A DNA stretch of 50,486 nt from a virus, in the IMG/VR virus record IMGVR_UViG_3300033153_005771, positions 1 to 50,486 of that record; one strand, given 5' to 3'. Positions 26,751-46,278 of this stretch are shown in pieces; position 1 is the stretch's first letter, and each line of letters begins with the position of its first letter. The notes beneath the pieces were generated by a model, which was given only the letters and a program-made list of their open reading frames with translations, ran no database searches and had not been told where the DNA came from. Made by a program: the position numbers and the translations under genes.

Positions 26751-27440
26751 CTACATAGAGCACAGGCGACATGCAGTCTTTCTTCGGCGCTGCTTTGGGA
26801 CTCGGCCCGATTCGAATTCGGCACGCATATCCTTCAGTGCTGCCGGCCATGTGTCCCTTCCCGGTGATCTGAACGTATACCCTGTCTGATGCTCCCATTC
26901 CTCACCCTTGACATATTCATCAGGATAATACGTCAGCAATTCCCACCATTCGTGGAGCGTCTGATAAAAGCAGACGGCGCAATCTGTCCTTTTCGGTGGC
27001 TCGAATCCCTTTGATCGGCAATATCCGATTACATCATCAATGCCCCACTTCCAATCACGCAGAGGATATACGATCTTGTTTCCCTCGTAGATTCCGCCAG
27101 CACGTCCCTCCTCATCTGATCTCAGACCGACAGCAAGGACAGCATCAGGATGAGTAGAGAGCCACTGAGCACACGGTTCGATCTTGATCATCCGCGTACA
27201 CCACCTCATCCTCCAATTCGGAAGGCATCCCTGTTCGTCAATCAATTCAGAGAGCGTCGGGGCATTTAGATCGATCAGTTCTGAATCGGTTGCCTTGGCA
27301 ACGGCTTCGATATGCGTTCTGACTTGCGGGAGTTCGTTTCCTGTCGCCGTATGGAGGAGTCTGAATAGATGGCCACGCTCGGCCAATCGGAGGGCGAGAG
27401 CAGTTGAATCCTTTCCACCTGAGAATGCGACGATTAGCAT
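26751..27440 (-). CDS. PP-loop ATP pyrophosphatase, PAPS reductase-like
   Basis: 229 residues. The P-loop SGGKDST lies at residues 7-13, followed by the family's NWRMRWCTRMIKIEP, VGLRSDEEGRAG, and two Cys pairs (CAVCF and near the C-terminus CRLC). Proteins of this family activate a substrate with ATP; in bacteria relatives reduce PAPS, modify tRNA or insert sulfur into DNA (DndC). The substrate here cannot be told. It is the last gene of the leftward operon and starts three bases after the stop of the holin-like gene. A second, longer PP-loop gene lies at 44591-45487. Confidence 0.8.
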   Translation of the reverse strand: MLIVAFSGGKDSTALALRLAERGHLFRLLHTATGNELPQVRTHIEAVAKATDSELIDLNAPTLSELIDEQGCLPNWRMRWCTRMIKIEPCAQWLSTHPDAVLAVGLRSDEEGRAGGIYEGNKIVYPLRDWKWGIDDVIGYCRSKGFEPPKRTDCAVCFYQTLHEWWELLTYYPDEYVKGEEWEHQTGYTFRSPGRDTWPAALKDMRAEFESGRVPKQRRRKTACRLCSM

Positions 27441-30658: not shown

Positions 30659-30952
30659 TTACAGCGCTATCAAGAGCGCCTTGTTGAATACAATCCGAGC
30701 ACCGCCATCCCGGAAACGATGGACGGGTTTAATCCATCCATCGAGAAACTTCCTTTCGTTGGGCGGGATATTCCGCCACTTCGCCACGTATGCAGCGTCT
30801 AAGGCGAATCCGATAGGGTCAGGGCCCTGCATTGATCCAGTGAGGTATCCGTGATCAGCCAGCCATCGCTCGGCCATGTGCAATGCCTCGAATGGCCCGC
30901 ACGGCTTGATTTCCACGGTATTCTTCTCACACGTCACTGTTTTCTTTTCCAT
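30659..30952 (-). CDS. Small protein overlapping the DNA methyltransferase, unknown
   Basis: 97 residues. The start at 30952 has AGGGGAG at proper distance, and the gene overlaps the methyltransferase end by 26 bases. Middle: AERWLADHGYLTGSMQGPDP. No motif recognised. The tight overlap suggests it is made together with the methyltransferase. Confidence 0.55.
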   Translation of the reverse strand: MEKKTVTCEKNTVEIKPCGPFEALHMAERWLADHGYLTGSMQGPDPIGFALDAAYVAKWRNIPPNERKFLDGWIKPVHRFRDGGARIVFNKALLIAL

Positions 30953-31826
30953 CGAACAACTCCCCTTGATGGTGAGAGGTTTCGGCCTTATGCAGATTCT
31001 TCACCGCTACATCGAAATATGACCGCTTTAGCTCCACTCCCATGAACCTGCGGCCCATCCGGAGGGCTTGATATCCTTCTGAGCCGATGCCAGCGAAGGG
31101 TGAGAACACAAGATCATCAGGCCGCGACCACAGCCCTACACACCGTTCTATGACGCCCAACTGCAAGGGGCATATGTGGCGGCAATCGTCATCATCACGC
31201 GCCCCAGACTTATTGAGCGTGTTGCTCATATTGATGTCTGTCCAAATCGGGGAGGCCCATTTCTGCCATTGGGCGACAGGGAATTCTTCTGGTGTGTGCG
31301 ATATCGGATCGGGATTCTCGCCGGGTTTCCGCATGGTCACGACATAATCAGGGATACCCATCCGAGACATGGCCGAATCCTTTTTGATCTGCTTCCACAG
31401 CAACCCGAGGGCTTTGGTTCGCTGCATGGCGGTCACGGGGTCTTTCCATATGCAAACTTCGGAATGGAAGATCCAGCCAGCATCCACATACATTTTGATC
31501 AACTCGCCCCTAAAATCACGGATGCCAATATATCCGTGATTCTGCTTGGACGTGGGCAGGTTCATGCAATGGAAAGATAATAGCCTTCCAGGCTTTGTGA
31601 TTCTGAGTAGATCCTCAACGAGAAATAAAAAGTGATCGTAGAACACGGTATCGCTGGACGAGTTACCCATATCGCGGTCTGAATTTGAATAAACATATAA
31701 TTGGGAAAATGGGGGAGAGAAAACCGAGTAATCGATACTTGATTCTGGTAATGCGCGGGATACCTCTACACAATCGCCATGGTACAGGACCCATCTATCT
31801 CTGATACATTGATCAATGACTTTCAT
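30927..31826 (-). CDS. Beta-class DNA methyltransferase (N4-cytosine or N6-adenine)
   Basis: 299 residues. Catalytic motif IV SPPF is at residues 37-40 and the AdoMet-binding motif FAGIGSEG at about 244-251; this order is that of beta-class amino methyltransferases. SPPF is more common in N4-cytosine enzymes. The C-terminal GRRFMGVELKRSYF closes the AdoMet fold. The target sequence cannot be read from the gene. It is the third gene after an SNF2 helicase and an HNH endonuclease, overlapping the latter by 14 bases, which suggests these three act together or move together. Confidence 0.85.
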   Translation of the reverse strand: MKVIDQCIRDRWVLYHGDCVEVSRALPESSIDYSVFSPPFSQLYVYSNSDRDMGNSSSDTVFYDHFLFLVEDLLRITKPGRLLSFHCMNLPTSKQNHGYIGIRDFRGELIKMYVDAGWIFHSEVCIWKDPVTAMQRTKALGLLWKQIKKDSAMSRMGIPDYVVTMRKPGENPDPISHTPEEFPVAQWQKWASPIWTDINMSNTLNKSGARDDDDCRHICPLQLGVIERCVGLWSRPDDLVFSPFAGIGSEGYQALRMGRRFMGVELKRSYFDVAVKNLHKAETSHHQGELFDGKENSDV

Positions 31827-34159: not shown

Positions 34160-34516
34160 CTAAGCCCCCTTCAGCGCCTCCAGCAGCACCCTGATGTCTG
34201 TTATCTGAAACTCAATGACTGTCTTGCGGCGGTCCATGTCAATCTTGATCACACGCCCCTCCAGACCTCTGTGGTAGAGCCTAGCCAGTTTCCCCCGGTG
34301 GATGCCTGAGATTGACAGATTGATGAATCGTGTGGACATCTCAGCGTCGGACAGCGCTTTGAGCAACGCGGTCCTTTGCGCCATCAGCCTCCTCAGCACT
34401 GGCCTGTAGACACGTTGCCTGTGGCTGCATGAGAGGCAGGCGCGGAACCAATAGAAGTTCGATACATTCCGCGCCCATGTAGACCATTGATGAGATGACA
34501 TGCACTGGCCCATCAT
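34160..34516 (-). CDS. Small protein downstream of the hexamer repeat
   Basis: 118 residues from the tandem ATG ATG at 34516; the first overlaps the stop of the repeat gene (ATGATGA). The C-terminal half (INLSISGIHRGKLARLYHRG ... RKTVIEFQITDIRVLLEAL) looks folded. The frame stays open upstream through the whole repeat up to 34711, so a longer form with a (Val-Glu/Val/Gly) repeat is possible. No family recognised. Confidence 0.5.
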   Translation of the reverse strand: MMGQCMSSHQWSTWARNVSNFYWFRACLSCSHRQRVYRPVLRRLMAQRTALLKALSDAEMSTRFINLSISGIHRGKLARLYHRGLEGRVIKIDMDRRKTVIEFQITDIRVLLEALKGA

Positions 34517-34749
34517 AACGACCACGACCCCGACCACGACCCCGACCTCGACCACGACCTCGACCACGACCTCGACCACGACCTCGACCCCGACCTCGAC
34601 CACGACCTCGACCACGACCTCGACCCCGACCTCGACCACGACCTCGACCACGACCCCGACCTCGACCTCGACCTCGACCACGACCACGACCTCGACCACG
34701 ACCTCGACCACGACCTCGCATACCCGGCCCTTGCTGTGGCTGCGTTCAT
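34513..34749 (-). CDS. Repeat-encoded Ser-Trp/Arg/Gly protein
   Basis: 78 residues. The ATG at 34749 overlaps the upstream stop (ATGA) and has GAGGAG six bases before it. After MNAATARAGYAR the rest is a dipeptide run Ser-X with X being Trp, Arg or Gly, ending ...WSL. Both its start and its stop are coupled to neighbouring genes, which is the best argument that this frame is translated. The other two frames of the repeat are also open. Function unknown; the product would be highly unusual. Confidence 0.4.
   Translation of the reverse strand: MNAATARAGYARSWSRSWSRSWSWSRSRSRSGSWSRSWSRSGSRSWSRSWSRSGSRSWSRSWSRSWSRSGSWSGSWSL
34518..34715. repeat. 198-bp hexamer array, 33 units of NCGACC
   Basis: Counted by hand on the plus strand: 33 consecutive units, five fixed positions in every unit, the variable base being A, T or C but never G. 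T and A often alternate, giving a local 12-bp period. All three minus-strand frames are open across the array and give Gly-Arg, Val-X and Ser-X dipeptide runs. Confidence 0.97.
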
Positions 34750-35081
34750 TTTACGCTCCTCGACAGCGGGTGAGTCCACTCGCAGCAATCGACGACGGCC
34801 CCGCGCCCAAGGATGGCCGTGCCCTGAACAACGGGCTCAACCTCGGACAACTCGCCCGTGGACAAGGCTTTTTCGAATCTGCCAGTATCGGCAATCCACG
34901 CGGCATCCTCGATTACAATCTCCTGATCCCCAACCGACACAACCCGCCCCGTCCAATAGTTCGTGACGAGCCTGAACAGGTACGCCTTTCCGACCACGTA
35001 GGGCGACACCGGGGCGCTCTGCTTGCCCATCATGTTCATGATTTCCTTCATCTCGCCAATTGTCATCTCGTCAATGTTCAT
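34746..35081 (-). CDS. Small protein, unknown (RecT operon)
   Basis: 111 residues; start and stop overlap neighbours by ATGA. N-terminus is helical (NIDEMTIGEMKEIMNMMGKQ); the middle has KAYLFRLVTNYWTGRVVSVG and QEIVIEDAAWIADTGRF, a small beta-barrel-like segment seen in phage early proteins of unknown role. It follows the recombination genes. Confidence 0.65.
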   Translation of the reverse strand: MNIDEMTIGEMKEIMNMMGKQSAPVSPYVVGKAYLFRLVTNYWTGRVVSVGDQEIVIEDAAWIADTGRFEKALSTGELSEVEPVVQGTAILGRGAVVDCCEWTHPLSRSVK

Positions 35082-36031
35082 TTCACATCTCCGGTTTCGT
35101 TGTTGGTGCCGACAGAGTAATCGATCGAAATTCGATCCACCTTGCCCTGGACAATCAGAGTGATCACGGTCTTTGCGGTATCCTCATCGATACCGCCATC
35201 AACGAGGGACTTCAAGGCCGCTCGGTTGATATTCTTCCGATGGTTCTTGTCCGCCGCCAGCATATCGAGACGCCTCTGCTCGGCCCTCTCCTCCACGATT
35301 TTCTGTTGCTGCTCTGCCTCGATCTTTCGCCGCTCCTCCTGTCGGGCCTCCTCCGCCCTGAGCTCGCCATCTTCAACGGCTCTTTGGGCGTCAGCCTTGG
35401 CCCTCTTCTCGGATTCTTCTGCCTCGAATTGCCTACGATTGGCAGCCCGCTCACGCTCCGTCGCCTTGTCGCGCTCGTCCTTTCTGGCTCTTTCGACGGC
35501 CTCTCTTGACTTGCGCTCGTCCTCCTCCTTCTGTCGCTGAGCCCCCTGCTGCTTGGCGATTTCAGCCTTCTGCCGGTCGATCTCCTCCTGCTCTTTCCTG
35601 ATCTTTTCCTGCTGGCGATCCAGTTCCTCGCGCTCCTTGCGGTCCTTCTCCGCCTTGATTTTGGCCTTGCGCTCCTTGTCGGCCACCTCCCAATCAGTGA
35701 GAGGCTTTCTGAACTCATCCCGGAGAGAATCGAGCTGCCGCTTCATCTCTCCTCGGGCGGTGTCGATGACCTTGCACCGGGTCTTCATGTCGATCACAAG
35801 TGACTTGCCGGCCTCCTCGAGCATGGTCTTCGATCTTGTGATTTTGTGGGCGACAGCCTTCATCTCAGCCCTGCCTCCCGACGTCGAGATGTCTATGTCG
35901 TACGCCCGAACGATATCTGTTATCGTTGCTATGACGGGCACGATGCCCTCGGGAGTGAATACCTGAGGCACGTTCAAGGTCTCCACCCGGATCAGCCCCA
36001 GCTCTTCTGTTTTTGCTATATCTGTTGTCAT
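35078..36031 (-). CDS. Long coiled-coil protein of the recombination operon
   Basis: 317 residues. Residues 1-110 form a globular helical part (ITDIVRAYDIDISTSGGRAE ... LDSLRDEFRKPLTDWE). Residues about 115-260 are a nearly pure E/K/R/Q/A coiled coil. The C-terminal 55 residues fold again (INRAALKSLVDGGIDEDTAK). Similar proteins sit next to RecT and exonuclease genes in many phages; their role is not known. It may link the exonuclease-annealase machine or act as a structural maintenance-like factor. Confidence 0.7.
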   Translation of the reverse strand: MTTDIAKTEELGLIRVETLNVPQVFTPEGIVPVIATITDIVRAYDIDISTSGGRAEMKAVAHKITRSKTMLEEAGKSLVIDMKTRCKVIDTARGEMKRQLDSLRDEFRKPLTDWEVADKERKAKIKAEKDRKEREELDRQQEKIRKEQEEIDRQKAEIAKQQGAQRQKEEDERKSREAVERARKDERDKATERERAANRRQFEAEESEKRAKADAQRAVEDGELRAEEARQEERRKIEAEQQQKIVEERAEQRRLDMLAADKNHRKNINRAALKSLVDGGIDEDTAKTVITLIVQGKVDRISIDYSVGTNNETGDVK

Positions 36032-36067: not shown

Positions 36068-37249
36068 CTAGAATTCGACATTATCATCGATACTGCCACT
36101 CAAATCGAACGATCCCGGCCCCTGCTCGCTCTCCGAAGTCTCACCGGTCATCGGGTTATATGCTGGATCATCCGCACCAGGTTGCGGGGAGCCAGCACCC
36201 TGTGCCCGCCGCTGCTCAGCCGCCCGTTCCCCGAGCTTCTTGACCTTGGAGCGAAGGCTGACGAGGTGGGCCTTCTGAGCCTCATTGTAGAGCCTCTGGA
36301 ATTCAGGAGCCGGCTCGTTGTTGATCGTGGTGTCGAATCCACCAAGCTCGCACATCACGTTCGCATAATCGTAGGACAGGGTATCACGCTCGGGTTTGTT
36401 CTTGTCGCCCTTGCCGTTCTCGGTGGGAGGTGGCTGCGGCTGGGGCTGTCCACCAGCCTCCCCTCGGAGTTCCTGATTCTGAGGACTGCCGTGAGATTCG
36501 GCGTCTTGCCCCGAGGTCTCGCCCTGCTGATCACCATTGCCATCCATGAAATCGTTCTTCATCTCGGCGGCATCCTGGCTAGTGGCCATGTCGATGGCTG
36601 CGATTTTATCCCCAGGTGTGATCTGTCGAGCCCCCTCTGGACTGTCGGGCAGAACATTATGGTCATACTCAGCGATGGCCATGCCCTCGAGCAAGTCGGG
36701 GAAGATGTCTTTCAGGTTCGCTGACCGAGCACGACGCTTGAGCATCGTTTTCAACCATTTTTTGTACGTGTCGTTCTGGAAAAGGCCGGCATCACGGGCC
36801 TCCTGTACAGTGAAAAAGGTCTCGTTGGTCTCCTTGTCACCCTTGCGCTGGACGAAGCAGACCGCGCCGAAAACAGGATTCTTCAAGTTCTTGTTCTTGA
36901 CGCATATCTCCATGCTGTTCTCGTCCACAAAGTATTCCTTGAAATACTCCAGCTCTCTGGAATGTCGGACGATGGCCAGAGGCAGGTCGCCATAGATACT
37001 CGGAGTGCCCTTGATGACTGCGATTTGTCGCAGCGCCATAAGCCCTTTCAGACCAAGTTCGGCCGCATACTGCAGACCAATCATGACTTGCTCGGGGCTC
37101 TTGTACTGTGCCGGAAGCATGCCGCTGGAGAGCCACATCTTGCACAGCTTCCACTGCCCAGAGAAATCCATGGCGACGAGTGCGCCCTCAACGAAACTGA
37201 TACTGTTGTCCATTTTTGCCAGCGAGTTATTCTTCTCCTGTTCACTCAT
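36068..37249 (-). CDS. recT: RecT-family single-strand annealing protein
   Basis: 393 residues. The core (residues about 30-200) has the RecT pattern GLQYAAELGLKGLMALRQIA and WLKTMLKRRARSANLKDIFP. A long Gln/Pro/Gly-rich, disordered linker follows (about 235-290), then a helical part and an acidic end SIDDNVEF. It would anneal complementary strands made by the exonuclease. It overlaps the exonuclease stop by eight bases. The C-terminal tip resembles that of single-stranded DNA-binding proteins, not typical of RecT. Confidence 0.85.
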   Translation of the reverse strand: MSEQEKNNSLAKMDNSISFVEGALVAMDFSGQWKLCKMWLSSGMLPAQYKSPEQVMIGLQYAAELGLKGLMALRQIAVIKGTPSIYGDLPLAIVRHSRELEYFKEYFVDENSMEICVKNKNLKNPVFGAVCFVQRKGDKETNETFFTVQEARDAGLFQNDTYKKWLKTMLKRRARSANLKDIFPDLLEGMAIAEYDHNVLPDSPEGARQITPGDKIAAIDMATSQDAAEMKNDFMDGNGDQQGETSGQDAESHGSPQNQELRGEAGGQPQPQPPPTENGKGDKNKPERDTLSYDYANVMCELGGFDTTINNEPAPEFQRLYNEAQKAHLVSLRSKVKKLGERAAEQRRAQGAGSPQPGADDPAYNPMTGETSESEQGPGSFDLSGSIDDNVEF

Positions 37250-41622: not shown

Positions 41623-41892
41623 ATGAGCCTAAATAGCGATTGCCCAAGATGCAAGGGCCATCTTGCTCCATCCTCGCCCATATTCATGAGCGGAAAGTGG
41701 AAATGGGTGATTGATTGTATAAGCTGTGGCCTGAGTATTCCGAGCACTGTGCCAGAGCACTATCGCAAGGATCGATATGCAGTGGACCATACGTCGGATC
41801 ATAATAAGCAGACGCCCTTTTCGAATCAATATGAAAACTTGATATATATCGACTATGACATCGATGAGCCTGGAAAGGATGGAGGATGTTGA
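41623..41892 (+). CDS. Small zinc-ribbon protein
   Basis: 89 residues. CPRC and, 23 residues later, CISC form a zinc ribbon in the first 40 residues; the rest is polar and ends KDGGC. It overlaps the start of the methyltransferase by seven bases, so may be coupled. Function unknown. Confidence 0.65.
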   Translation: MSLNSDCPRCKGHLAPSSPIFMSGKWKWVIDCISCGLSIPSTVPEHYRKDRYAVDHTSDHNKQTPFSNQYENLIYIDYDIDEPGKDGGC

Positions 41893-42980
41893 ATGGGCTG
41901 GATATACCTAGCGTGCTCAGATCGCTCGACCTGTTCAGCGGGCGAGGAGCCCAAGCACGAGCCCTATCGCCGTGGATCATGCCTGCCGCCTACTGTGAAA
42001 TCAATCGATACTCCCAGCGAATACTTCTGGCAGAGATGGCACGAGGAGCGATTCCGACTGCGCCTATCTGTGACGATATACGCTCGCTCACTGCCGACAT
42101 GCTGCCATTCCGACCCGACATCGTTGTTGCTGCCGTGCCCTGTCAAGGATTTTCCTGTGCAGGTCGCGGTGAAGGCCTGGATCACGAGTCAAGCGCACTT
42201 TTCTTCGAAGTGCTCAGACTTGTCACTGATATTCGACCCGCCTTCGTGTTCCTGGAAAACAGCCCAGCAATCACTGTTCGAGGAGGGTCAGAAGTCATGG
42301 CCCGATTTGCCGCGCTTCGGTATGATTCGCGATGGTGCATGCTGTCCGCTGAAGAAGTCGGCAATGCGTGCCATAAAAGAGATCGATGGTGGTGCTTACT
42401 TGCCAACGCCGACAGTATCTCAGCGCACGAACCAAGGCGGCGGCAGCGGGATAGTCGGCAAGGATCGGCACAGCTTGAGCGGGATGGCCAAACGGGAGAT
42501 GGTCCCAACGCCCTGCAAAGCGGGGGGAGGAAGGGCGATTCCAGAGGATGCCAATTTCAGCGGGCTGACTTGCGCATACAAGAAAAATGGGACGAAAGTT
42601 CAGGTGGCCCTGGATGTCCTGGCGAAACGCAAGAGAATCCCGACTCCAACCAAAACAGATGCCAGGGGGCGCGGATATCAGAGGAGCAGGGGGGGGGCAA
42701 TCTACATGAGTCTCATAGGACTGGCGAAAGCGAAAATACCGGCACCAGTGAAACACGACGAACGCGAGCCTCATCCGAAAGACATGGAGCGGAGAACAAT
42801 CCCATGCAACGCACTTGCGAATGCGTCTATGCTGCCAGGACATCCGCAAGGCGCGTACAACCCAGAGTATACAGAACAGGTCTTGGGATCGCGCATAGGT
42901 CACACCGCATTGCCGCCTTGGGCGAAAGTTGGGATGAACCAACGGCGCGGGAAGCATTCAAAATCTTGATGAGGCTATGA
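41886..42980 (+). CDS. DNA cytosine-C5 methyltransferase
   Basis: 364 residues. AdoMet motif I LDLFSGRG (14-21), catalytic motif IV PCQGFS (85-90, active Cys 86), motif VI as VFLENSPAI (about 121-129) and motif VIII as HKRDRWWCL. The C-terminal end VYRTGLGIAHRSHRIAALGE matches the closing motif of this family. Residues about 195-310 are a polar, low-complexity region where the target recognition domain is expected. It would methylate cytosines in phage DNA; the target cannot be read. A second frame (41893-42969) is open over nearly all of it. Confidence 0.85.
   Translation: MLNGLDIPSVLRSLDLFSGRGAQARALSPWIMPAAYCEINRYSQRILLAEMARGAIPTAPICDDIRSLTADMLPFRPDIVVAAVPCQGFSCAGRGEGLDHESSALFFEVLRLVTDIRPAFVFLENSPAITVRGGSEVMARFAALRYDSRWCMLSAEEVGNACHKRDRWWCLLANADSISAHEPRRRQRDSRQGSAQLERDGQTGDGPNALQSGGRKGDSRGCQFQRADLRIQEKWDESSGGPGCPGETQENPDSNQNRCQGARISEEQGGGNLHESHRTGESENTGTSETRRTRASSERHGAENNPMQRTCECVYAARTSARRVQPRVYRTGLGIAHRSHRIAALGESWDEPTAREAFKILMRL
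41893..42969 (+). CDS. Alternative +1 frame over the cytosine methyltransferase (possible overlapping gene)
   Basis: 358 codons open from ATG 41893. Its second half shows WPDLPRFGMIRDGACC, GGAYLPTPTVSQRTNQGGG, two further PTP repeats (VPTPCKAGGG, IPTPTKTDARG) and YNPEYTEQVLG. From memory this is the pattern of proteins annotated next to or with phage Dcm enzymes. The same bases give LANADSIS in the main frame and LPTPTVSQ here. It could be a translated overlapping gene, a frame shared by ancient frameshift, or a compositional shadow. A long antisense frame in the same region argues for the last. Confidence 0.3.
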   Translation: MGWIYLACSDRSTCSAGEEPKHEPYRRGSCLPPTVKSIDTPSEYFWQRWHEERFRLRLSVTIYARSLPTCCHSDPTSLLLPCPVKDFPVQVAVKAWITSQAHFSSKCSDLSLIFDPPSCSWKTAQQSLFEEGQKSWPDLPRFGMIRDGACCPLKKSAMRAIKEIDGGAYLPTPTVSQRTNQGGGSGIVGKDRHSLSGMAKREMVPTPCKAGGGRAIPEDANFSGLTCAYKKNGTKVQVALDVLAKRKRIPTPTKTDARGRGYQRSRGGAIYMSLIGLAKAKIPAPVKHDEREPHPKDMERRTIPCNALANASMLPGHPQGAYNPEYTEQVLGSRIGHTALPPWAKVGMNQRRGKHSKS

Positions 42981-44494: not shown

Positions 44495-44583
44495 AACCGC
44501 CCTGGCAGCAAACCATGGCGTTTATCCATCAGCCCTCTCCCGGAATCTTTGGCATGCTCTCGGGAGGGGGCTCTTTCTTTTTT
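44495..44583 (+). ncRNA. Candidate small RNA or attenuator leader (about 90 nt)
   Basis: The stretch between the promoter at 44460-44488 and the T-tract ending at 44583 has no convincing ORF and ends in a strong hairpin. It is either a free phage small RNA or the regulated leader of the PP-loop gene. Ends are estimates: the 5' end is placed about seven bases after the -10 box. Confidence 0.45.
44531..44583 (+). terminator. Strong intrinsic terminator in front of the PP-loop gene
   Basis: A 12-bp stem (AGCCCTCTCCCG at 44531-44542 with CGGGAGGGGGCT at 44561-44572, one G-T pair), an 18-base loop, and a CTTTCTTTTTT tail. The gene's ATG is only eight bases after the tail. Confidence 0.82.
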
Positions 44584-44590
44584 GGGCTGT

Positions 44591-45487
44591 ATGACACCTG
44601 ATCCTAGCAAAACATATTTCGTCTCGGTTTCAGGGGGCAAGGATTCGACTGCCCTATGGCTGTATCTTGAAAGAGACCTCAAACTACCAAATCTTGTTCC
44701 GATATTCGCTGATACCAAATGGGAACATAAAATCACCATCGACTACCTCCGATACCTCAACAGCGTGATGAATGCCGAGCTTAGATACGTTGAGCTTGAA
44801 TTCGGGTTCGCTGATCTGTGCGTGAAGAAAAAACGGTTTCCATCCCCACGCCGACGGTTCTGCACGGAATGGCTCAAACTTCGTCCGATCCGTGATTTCA
44901 TCAACCATTATATGATTGATAACAACCTTGAAGACCACGACGTTGTTATGTGCTGTGGGGTGCGCAGAGAGGAAAGCCATGCAAGGCGTAATTTCCCGGA
45001 ATTCGAGTGGGACGACTTCATGCAGATTCCTAAGTGGAATCCGATTGTGGCTTGGATATGGAATCAGGTTTTCGACCTTCATGATAAATATGATATCATG
45101 CCGAACCCCCTCTATCTGCTGGGAATGTCACGAGTGGGGTGTATGCCGTGTATTATGTGTAATCAAAAAGAACTTAGGGTCATCGCCGAACGCTGGCCGG
45201 AGATCTTCGAGGTGATCGCGATCATCGAAAAGATACTAGCCGGTAATAGCAAGCAAGGATTTGACGCGGCATTTTTCGACTATCGTATGGTGCCAGATCG
45301 GTTCTGCTCAAAAGTATACGTCGGCAAGAATGGCGAGAAATACAAGGTTCCAACCGCCGAAGACATGTTCAAATATGTTCTCATGAACAAGGACGATCGC
45401 AGGGCGGGGCTGGGACAGCTCAAGTTATTTGAAGATGAGAAGAATGAGCCTTTGTCGTGCGATAGCATATATGGGCTTTGTGAATAG
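44591..45487 (+). CDS. PP-loop protein, PAPS reductase-like (phage type)
   Basis: 298 residues from ATG 44591; the frame also allows a TTG at 44549 inside the terminator loop. SGGKDSTALWLYLE (14-27) binds ATP; RRFCTEWLKLRPI and CCGVRREESHARR form the family's substrate site; MSRVGCMPCIMCNQKELRVIA carries the Cys cluster of phage PAPS reductase-like proteins. It lacks an evident good ribosome site. The role may be sulfur metabolism or modification of a nucleotide; it cannot be told here. A shorter relative is encoded at 26751-27440. Confidence 0.82.
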   Translation: MTPDPSKTYFVSVSGGKDSTALWLYLERDLKLPNLVPIFADTKWEHKITIDYLRYLNSVMNAELRYVELEFGFADLCVKKKRFPSPRRRFCTEWLKLRPIRDFINHYMIDNNLEDHDVVMCCGVRREESHARRNFPEFEWDDFMQIPKWNPIVAWIWNQVFDLHDKYDIMPNPLYLLGMSRVGCMPCIMCNQKELRVIAERWPEIFEVIAIIEKILAGNSKQGFDAAFFDYRMVPDRFCSKVYVGKNGEKYKVPTAEDMFKYVLMNKDDRRAGLGQLKLFEDEKNEPLSCDSIYGLCE

Positions 45488-45516: not shown

Positions 45517-46278
45517 ATGCACCGAGGATTTGTAGTCGTCTGGAGAAAGATTGAGGACTCTCAGGTGTGGTCGATGAAAGATGACATCTTTGGTCTTGCC
45601 ATTAGATGCCTAGTGATGGCCAATCACGTGGACAAGTGGTGGAATGGGAATCTCATAATGCGAGGGTCTTTCGCCACATCCATCGAGAGCCTGCGCTCGA
45701 AAGGCAAGTCTACCACACAACGCACAAGAACGGCATTGAAGGTTCTTCGCGATATCGAATTTCTAACAACCAAAACAACAAGCCAGTATACGCTCGTGAC
45801 CATTGTCAACTATGACTTGTACCAGGATAAGAAGTCGAAGGTAACAAACAAAGTAACAAACAATCAACAAACGGATAACAAACGGATAACAAACGGCCAA
45901 CAACAACTAAACAATGAAGAACCATGTAACCATGAGAACAAAGAACACATAGAGTCCGTTTTCCAGCACTGGAATTCCGAGGGGGTCATTACACACCGAT
46001 CGGTGGGCAAATTCAAAGAGTGCCTGTCCGCTGCGTTGAAAACATATTCGCCAGACGAACTCAAGGCTGCTGTCTCGAATTATGCTGATATTCTGAAATC
46101 CGTGGATTGCTATTGGTCGTACAAGTGGAATCTCCACCAGTTCCTAACCCAGAAGAACGGCATTGATAGGTTTCTACCTGAGAACTTCAATCGAAACGAC
46201 TATCTGGTCAGAGGAAATAAAGGCAATCAGCAGCCCCCACCAGAAAAACCATTCAAATCAACGAAGGACTTCGGATGA
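45517..46278 (+). CDS. Replication initiator / replisome organiser with internal iterons
   Basis: 253 residues. The N-terminal winged-helix domain (GFVVVWRKIEDSQVWSMKDD ... LAIRCLVMANHVDKWWNG; TTQRTRTALKVLRDIEFL; YTLVTIVNYDLYQDKK) is that of phage replication organisers. An N/T/Q-rich linker (residues about 108-140) is encoded by the repeats at 45841-45896. The C-terminal part (LSAALKTYSPDELKAAVSNY) would contact the helicase encoded just downstream in ATGA overlap. Confidence 0.78.
   Translation: MHRGFVVVWRKIEDSQVWSMKDDIFGLAIRCLVMANHVDKWWNGNLIMRGSFATSIESLRSKGKSTTQRTRTALKVLRDIEFLTTKTTSQYTLVTIVNYDLYQDKKSKVTNKVTNNQQTDNKRITNGQQQLNNEEPCNHENKEHIESVFQHWNSEGVITHRSVGKFKECLSAALKTYSPDELKAAVSNYADILKSVDCYWSYKWNLHQFLTQKNGIDRFLPENFNRNDYLVRGNKGNQQPPPEKPFKSTKDFG
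45841..45896 (+). repeat. Iterons inside the initiator gene (candidate replication origin)
   Basis: Five units around AACAAAC: GTAACAAAC at 45841 and 45853, then TCAACAAACGG, ATAACAAACGG and ATAACAAACGG at 45864, 45875 and 45886. Period is 12 then 11 bases, about one helical turn. A/T-rich sequence continues to about 45960. In lambda and many other phages, the origin lies in the initiator gene in this way. Confidence 0.65.

Follow-up and report, generated by a model that had tools for sequence, protein, structure and literature searches.

Ser/Arg or Gly/Arg low-complexity chains, as in SR proteins (RS domains) and RGG/RG tails, are likely to be disordered and to bind nucleic acid. In Hfq, a protein with an Sm core, an acidic disordered tail binds the core, regulates the binding of nucleic acid, with which it competes, and restricts the aggregation of DNA (PMC5606850). 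The phage gene pair described here, P3 and SX, resembles Hfq in combining a core of predicted Sm fold with a low-complexity chain that is predicted to be disordered; however, the Hfq tail is part of the protein, whereas SX is a separate, coupled gene that encodes almost only a dipeptide repeat, and the charges are reversed, as P3 is acidic and SX basic. SX is comparable to RS domains and RGG tails as a chain of Ser/Arg or Gly/Arg type, but differs in that it is free-standing, alternates strictly between Ser and a second residue (X), contains about one-third Trp and has no RRM. The phage family DUF6948 (PF22253) shares with P3 a two-gene layout with a repeat gene and is the top named match of the P3 model in a viral structure library; its repeat partner is an acidic G-[SYD] protein, whereas SX is a basic S-[WRG] protein.

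The window analysed here spans the whole of an IMG/VR virus record (50,486 bases) and has genes for a terminase, a DnaB helicase and RecT. A first-pass annotation, made from the letters and their open reading frames, had pointed to 33 perfect NCGACC hexamers in which the varying base is A, T or C and never G. A recount confirms 33 consecutive units (14 ACGACC, 14 TCGACC, 5 CCGACC and 0 GCGACC), a copy number that, like the others given below, derives from a metagenome assembly, probably short-read; 60 shuffles that preserve dinucleotides give no run of more than 2 units. The window holds no second NCGACC array. All three leftward frames are open across the array, as the annotation had stated, and its residue assignments for each frame are correct (Gly-Arg; Ser with Trp, Gly or Arg; Val with Val, Gly or Glu); an open frame on the plus strand is also present (Table 1).

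Table 1 Coordinates of the P3–SX locus and of other features in the window
Feature	Position	Strand	Details
Hexanucleotide array, 33 NCGACC units	34518-34715	-	GGTCGN on coding strand; encodes (Ser-[Trp/Arg/Gly])n
SX gene, 78 aa	34513-34749	-	ATG at 34749; stop TGA 34513-34515
Ser-X open frame	34513-34788	-	Spans array
Gly-Arg open frame	34341-34721	-	Spans array
Val-X open frame	34160-34711	-	Spans array
Plus-strand open frame	34500-35120	+	
Shine-Dalgarno GAGGAG	34756-34761	-	6 nt before SX ATG, within 3' end of P3 gene
P3 gene, 111 aa	34746-35081	-	Directly upstream of SX; stop overlaps SX start (ATGA)
P4 gene, 118 aa, basic (+13)	34160-34516	-	ATG at 34516; ATGA-coupled to SX stop
phrog_1376-type gene	35078-36031	-	E 4.8e-49; upstream, same operon
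RecT-like ssDNA annealing protein gene	36068-37249	-	Context
PAPS-reductase-domain gene (PF01507)	26751-27440	-	E 8.6e-11
PAPS-reductase-domain gene (PF01507)	44549-45487	+	E 3.9e-23
N6/N4-type DNA methyltransferase gene	30927-31826	-	
C5-type DNA methyltransferase gene	41886-42980	+	
Weak tandem repeat, period 11, about 5 copies	45842-45903		In ORF upstream of DnaB-like helicase gene

The ATGA couplings that were said to favour the Ser-X frame are present at both ends of the gene: the P3 gene ends in AAATGA, which overlaps the SX start codon, and SX ends in TTATGA, which overlaps the start codon of P4. The predicted SX protein consists of the leader MNAATARAGYAR followed by strict alternation of Ser with Trp, Arg or Gly to the C terminus, where the last residue is Leu. 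It has no Pfam domain and matched no profile family, and the possibility that SX is an SR protein, with an RRM and an RS domain, was rejected because the 78 residues comprise only leader and repeat. The array makes up the bulk of a genuine protein-coding gene, SX, with predicted translational coupling to the P3 gene. P4 was rejected as a member of the module; no relatives were found in viral contigs, and it lies outside the conserved cassette.

Relatives of P3 with 37–59% identity occur in at least 80 IMG/VR contigs, and nearly all have a hexamer array directly downstream, the opposite of array-free relatives that keep one clean gene. The units vary among relatives (GGTCGN, GGTCAN, GGTCTN, GGAGCN and GGAGTN), and all combine a Ser codon with NGG. 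Across 68 non-redundant arrays, Ser is found at 96.4% of 1,635 Ser positions, encoded predominantly by TCG in 43 arrays, AGC in 10, TCA in 9, TCT in 4 and AGT in 2. The 1,621 X residues include 536 Arg, 480 Gly and 460 Trp; Arg is strongly preferred to Lys (536 versus 24) and Trp to Tyr or Phe, 87% of the X codons are NGG and 12.6% are without GG. Trp and Arg are both present in every array of at least 15 units (51 of 51). A change between TCN and AGY alters the DNA yet Ser is kept, which marks the protein as the selected object; these codon patterns indicate that selection acts on the protein, in the form of a strict alternation of Ser with Trp, Arg or Gly. Ser-X is the correct frame. The Gly-Arg frame, which underlay the proposal of an RGG-like protein, is wrong: this reading is absent from the 25 of 68 arrays that use TCA, TCT, AGC or AGT for Ser, in which Ser-[W/R/G] is kept, and codon switching between relatives rules out both the Gly-Arg and the Val-X frame as the gene. 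The broader idea of a low-complexity protein of nucleic-acid-binding type is plausible.

The flanks of the array are also shared. A leader that approximates MNAAILRTGFD (M-N-x-A-x-L-R-T-G-F-D) is common to relatives in about 70 loci, the ATGA (−4) overlap occurs in 44 of the 68 relatives, and a Shine-Dalgarno-like match of at least 4 nt precedes the gene in 57% of the 68, compared with 20% of random upstream windows. The C termini of P3 proteins tend to PRxQK before the stop codon, and that stretch holds the Shine-Dalgarno-like bases and the overlap; in the window, P3 ends in ...PLSRSVK.

Because no sequence family covers P3 (no match in Pfam at E 0.01, NCBIfam or PHROGs), it is called Sm-like from its predicted fold only. 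The AlphaFold2 model, based on 54 sequences, has a mean pLDDT of 93.9 and forms a five-stranded, strongly bent small barrel. VIA-align superposes the model on the archaeal SmAP 1jri_B with Z 9.8 and an rmsd of 2.2 over 70 aligned residues; 306 chains reach Z ≥ 8, and the top of the list consists entirely of Sm/LSm proteins (including 1jri_B/1loj_B). A Foldseek search of the PDB also lists Sm/LSm proteins, the best of them at E 2.9e-3 with prob 1.00. P3 is thus predicted to have an Sm/LSm fold, as in archaeal SmAP and eukaryotic Sm/LSm proteins (1jri, 1loj and 1i8f, with about 70 residues aligned), but it differs from these in sequence, with 16–22% identity in the best rows, and in an extra helix that separates strands 3 and 4. 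A shared fold by itself shows no function. The structural list for P3 also contains a 94-residue protein of Eggerthella phage PMBT5 (A0A345MKF1), which may correspond to the PMBT5 gene of the third family described below.

The association of P3 with SX was also examined in reverse, using Ser-X arrays recognized by DNA pattern alone in loci gathered regardless of P3. Among the matches listed, 108 locus-strands have an array and enough upstream sequence, and in 88 of these a P3-family gene lies directly upstream (63 P3 and 25 a distant P3 homologue, with profile thresholds of E 1e-3 and 1e-2, respectively, in a small search space). No recognized Sm-like gene lies directly upstream of the remaining 20 among the matches listed, and a few of these have one downstream. 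All locus counts are lower bounds. The P3 branches are related to each other (hhalign E about 1e-9), and the repeat genes beside the distant branch have different leaders, for example MR..KQKYR. None of 329 profile hits joins core and repeat in one natural protein. The first-pass annotation had called such arrays rare in phage genomes; this claim is wrong, as at least about 120 IMG/VR stretches match each of two patterns, and the array is part of a two-gene cassette that is widespread. In a collection of 84,980 genomes, P3 occurs in 4 contigs, all of them MAG contigs and all with SX, and 50,697 phage records include a single P3 record and a single distant-P3 record, each derived from the Manatee Spring metagenome. 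Given that P3 is seen only in such MAG and metagenomic records, all examples of the S-[WRG] version known here come from uncultivated phages. An annotated relative of SX, UOF78858.1 in MW202573.1 (Myoviridae sp. ctTUS972, Manatee Spring), has the SX-type leader and S-[WRG] repeat, adjoins a P3 gene and is annotated as a hypothetical protein; it differs in coming from a metagenomic record without a named function.

The genes that neighbour P3–SX are not conserved, although many belong to DNA metabolism, and the genomic context therefore tells little beyond this tendency. A partnership with a recombination operon was considered and rejected, as the RecT, exonuclease, helicase and phrog_1376 genes of the window are neighbours in only 0–3 of 45 loci.

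The P3–SX pair represents a general phage cassette, in which a small Sm-like-type gene is followed by a hexamer-encoded dipeptide-repeat gene. In one version P3 is paired with an S-[WRG] repeat; in the others, DUF6948 precedes a G-[SYD] repeat and a putative Sm-like third family precedes a G-[YND] repeat. DUF6948 is followed by a G-[SYD] gene in 73 of 79 loci (L327–L405; at least 79 loci), and some of the others are contig ends. The two genes overlap mostly by 13 nt, and the X residues of the repeats are Ser (880), Tyr (660) and Asp (577). The AlphaFold2 model of DUF6948 has a pLDDT of 97.2, and nearly all of the listed fold matches are Sm/LSm proteins, which head the lists of two fold searches, at a modest VIA Z of 7.3. 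P3 has no match to PF22253, with a non-significant profile–profile hhalign probability of about 1%, and the DUF6948 profile found nothing in the window. Isolated phages with the DUF6948 pair are Iodobacter phage PhiPLPE, Pectobacterium phage Ymer, Vibrio phage IKEMa6-1 and Chlorobiaceae phage CV-1-33. The third upstream family was first seen in locus L077; its pairing was predicted and then scanned for, and a G-[Y/N/D] gene lies downstream in 16 of 16 loci that are long enough to show one. This pair is also found in three GenBank phages, namely Eggerthella phage PMBT5, Rhodobacter phage RcapNL (Sm-like-type gene RcapNL_00047, repeat gene RcapNL_00046) and MW202613.1.

Gly-[Tyr/Asp/Ser] repeat genes are present as well in some of the P3 loci, and in L016 and L039 they are preceded by DUF6948. 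Acidic Gly-X genes adjoin cationic Ser-X genes in the same phage at L016 (3602-4197), L039 (4288-4901), L077 (581-1824) and L018 (1-1550), suggesting that chemically opposite partners are used together.

The arrays change rapidly. Within one array, about 96% of the Ser codons are of one kind, and in 47 of the 53 arrays with at least four AGG or CGG codons, Arg is encoded purely by one or the other; the absence of G at the varying base in the window array reflects this family habit of one Arg codon per array. The order of Trp, Arg and Gly is near-random within arrays. Loci L020, L024 and L025 have flanks with 87–95% identity and arrays that cannot be aligned but are built of the same codons, and the near-identical L049 and L050/L051 have arrays that differ by whole units. 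Arrays can also be identical in contigs from different metagenomes (L008/L009 and L063/L064). In the window, neighbouring units are usually different (4 identical of 32 at lag 1) and identity is enriched at lag 2 (18 of 31), which together point to growth of this array in 12-bp steps. Slippage of single units was rejected as the main source of order, because the family as a whole shows no surplus of identical neighbouring units. Diversification by a DGR-like system was also rejected: single-Arg-codon arrays are not expected from random N-base mutagenesis, and no reverse transcriptase (RVT_1) was found in the window record, which may be a fragment, in a search with positive controls. We infer that three frozen hexamers are shuffled, gained and lost under selection for a mixture. 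Loci L063/L064, L076, L088, L111 and L297 carry SX paralogues in tandem, every copy with a leader and an array of its own; their flanks are near-identical but their arrays differ.

The explanation that we favour, at somewhat short of an even chance, is that SX is coupled to the Sm-like P3 as one instance of the general cassette and acts as a disordered tail in trans on a nucleic-acid-binding ring. By analogy with Hfq, the Sm-like protein would assemble into an RNA- or ssDNA-binding ring, and the repeat protein would be a disordered polymer defined by composition, with Trp/Arg or Tyr/Asp as stickers and Ser/Gly as spacers. Coupled translation would set a fixed ratio of core to repeat, and the repeat protein would then serve in trans as the tail of the ring. 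As a cationic-aromatic chain, SX may bind nucleic acid, the acidic Sm-like core or both, and could help to hold, anneal or condense phage RNA or ssDNA, by analogy with the tuning of Hfq by its disordered C-terminal tail. Whole hexamer units could be gained, lost and shuffled without a change of frame, and under this proposal the fast drift of array length and unit order would follow from a requirement for composition and alternation only.

P3 (−3.0) and SX (+9.5) carry charges of opposite sign, as do DUF6948 (+1.7) and its G-X partner (−7.5), but the two proteins of the third family do not (Sm-like −1.4, G-X −10.1). Charge complementarity between core and tail was therefore rejected as a universal rule, and a simple electrostatic latch is not universal either. 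A wider proposal, which we regard as possible and hold more tentatively, is that these cassettes are widespread, unrecognized two-gene devices of RNP type, with an Sm-like ring and a dipeptide-repeat polymer in trans that is cationic (S-[WRG]) or anionic (G-[YDSN]), sometimes both in one phage, and that they could build phage-specific condensates or control phage RNA or ssDNA.

Much of the chemistry of SX would suit a protein that acts alone. Its composition of Arg, Trp, Gly and Ser, with the preferences for Arg and Trp given above, and the presence of DNA-metabolism genes nearby in many phages are consistent with an independent cationic-aromatic disordered protein of RGG/RS-like type that coats or condenses ssDNA or RNA, with the Sm-like gene setting its expression by coupling and not acting as a physical partner. 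We consider this unlikely, as pairing with an Sm-like gene recurs in several families with differently composed repeats; this counts against mere expression coupling, which needs no such gene each time. Slightly less probable is a counter-defence or host-takeover module in which the repeat protein is a decoy, an aggregation seed or an inhibitor of a host factor. The autonomy of the cassette, its variable neighbours, its fast-changing sequence and its tandem paralogues (L063, L076 and L297) are all typical of arms-race genes; however, PADLOC defence profiles gave no match at E 0.1 and there was no other profile match, and the composition is constant, unlike most arms-race interfaces.

It is very improbable that the DNA or RNA itself is selected, as a (GGN4)n strand that forms G-quadruplex-like or recombination-prone structures. 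GG does recur every 6 nt on the coding strand of both S-X and G-X arrays, but the prevalence of NGG among X codons is accounted for by Trp, which has TGG only, and by homogenization of the units, and this reading fits poorly with Ser that is held across TCN and AGY, with the X codons that lack GG and with the conserved leader, Shine-Dalgarno sequence and ATGA. A marginally poorer prospect is neutral microsatellite expansion, or an assembly artefact, in a dispensable gene. Arrays do turn over rapidly and short-read copy numbers may be inexact, yet arrays recur unchanged across metagenomes, Trp, Arg and Gly are near 1:1:1 overall, the frame is kept in relatives and the layout recurs in isolated phages, so that this account is already contradicted. 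Phase variation through repeat number, as the first-pass annotation had suggested, is scarcely credible: units are indeed gained and lost, but a 6-nt unit preserves all frames, near-identical contigs differ by multiples of 6, and on/off switching is thereby excluded.

In the open-access literature, we found nothing on these repeat proteins or on their pairing with DUF6948 or phage Sm-like proteins, although a description may exist elsewhere, and a term search of a survey of prokaryote and phage low-complexity proteins (PMC6821194) showed no such repeat family. The two-gene design, versions of which with differing repeats are found in hundreds of diverse phages, thus seems to be undescribed. 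Judged by sequence, P3–SX is a new gene pair that at best works like an Sm protein with a disordered tail. In every family examined the rule held that a small Sm-like-type phage gene is followed by a coupled gene for a near-pure dipeptide repeat. The cassette offers a natural system for the role of a disordered polymer of which composition alone is conserved, and bears on why Sm cores need tails and on how hexamer arrays shuffle yet keep frame and mixture. For the G-X version, there are isolated phages in which the cassette can be tested (Rhodobacter RcapNL, Eggerthella PMBT5, Iodobacter PhiPLPE and Pectobacterium Ymer).

The analysis also corrects annotation (L406, L408, L427 and L429). Repeat genes had been missed, as in PhiPLPE, in which the G-X gene is unannotated; read in another frame, as with the gene annotated in CV-1-33; or named ‘adsorption protein’ (PMBT5 YP_009807317.1, gp38) or ‘lamprin’ (MW202613.1).

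Elsewhere in the window, the two PAPS-reductase-domain genes have a possible role in DNA or nucleotide modification, and two DNA methyltransferases are encoded on opposite strands. The second tandem repeat (TAACAAACGGA) occupies a position that would suit a replication-origin iteron.
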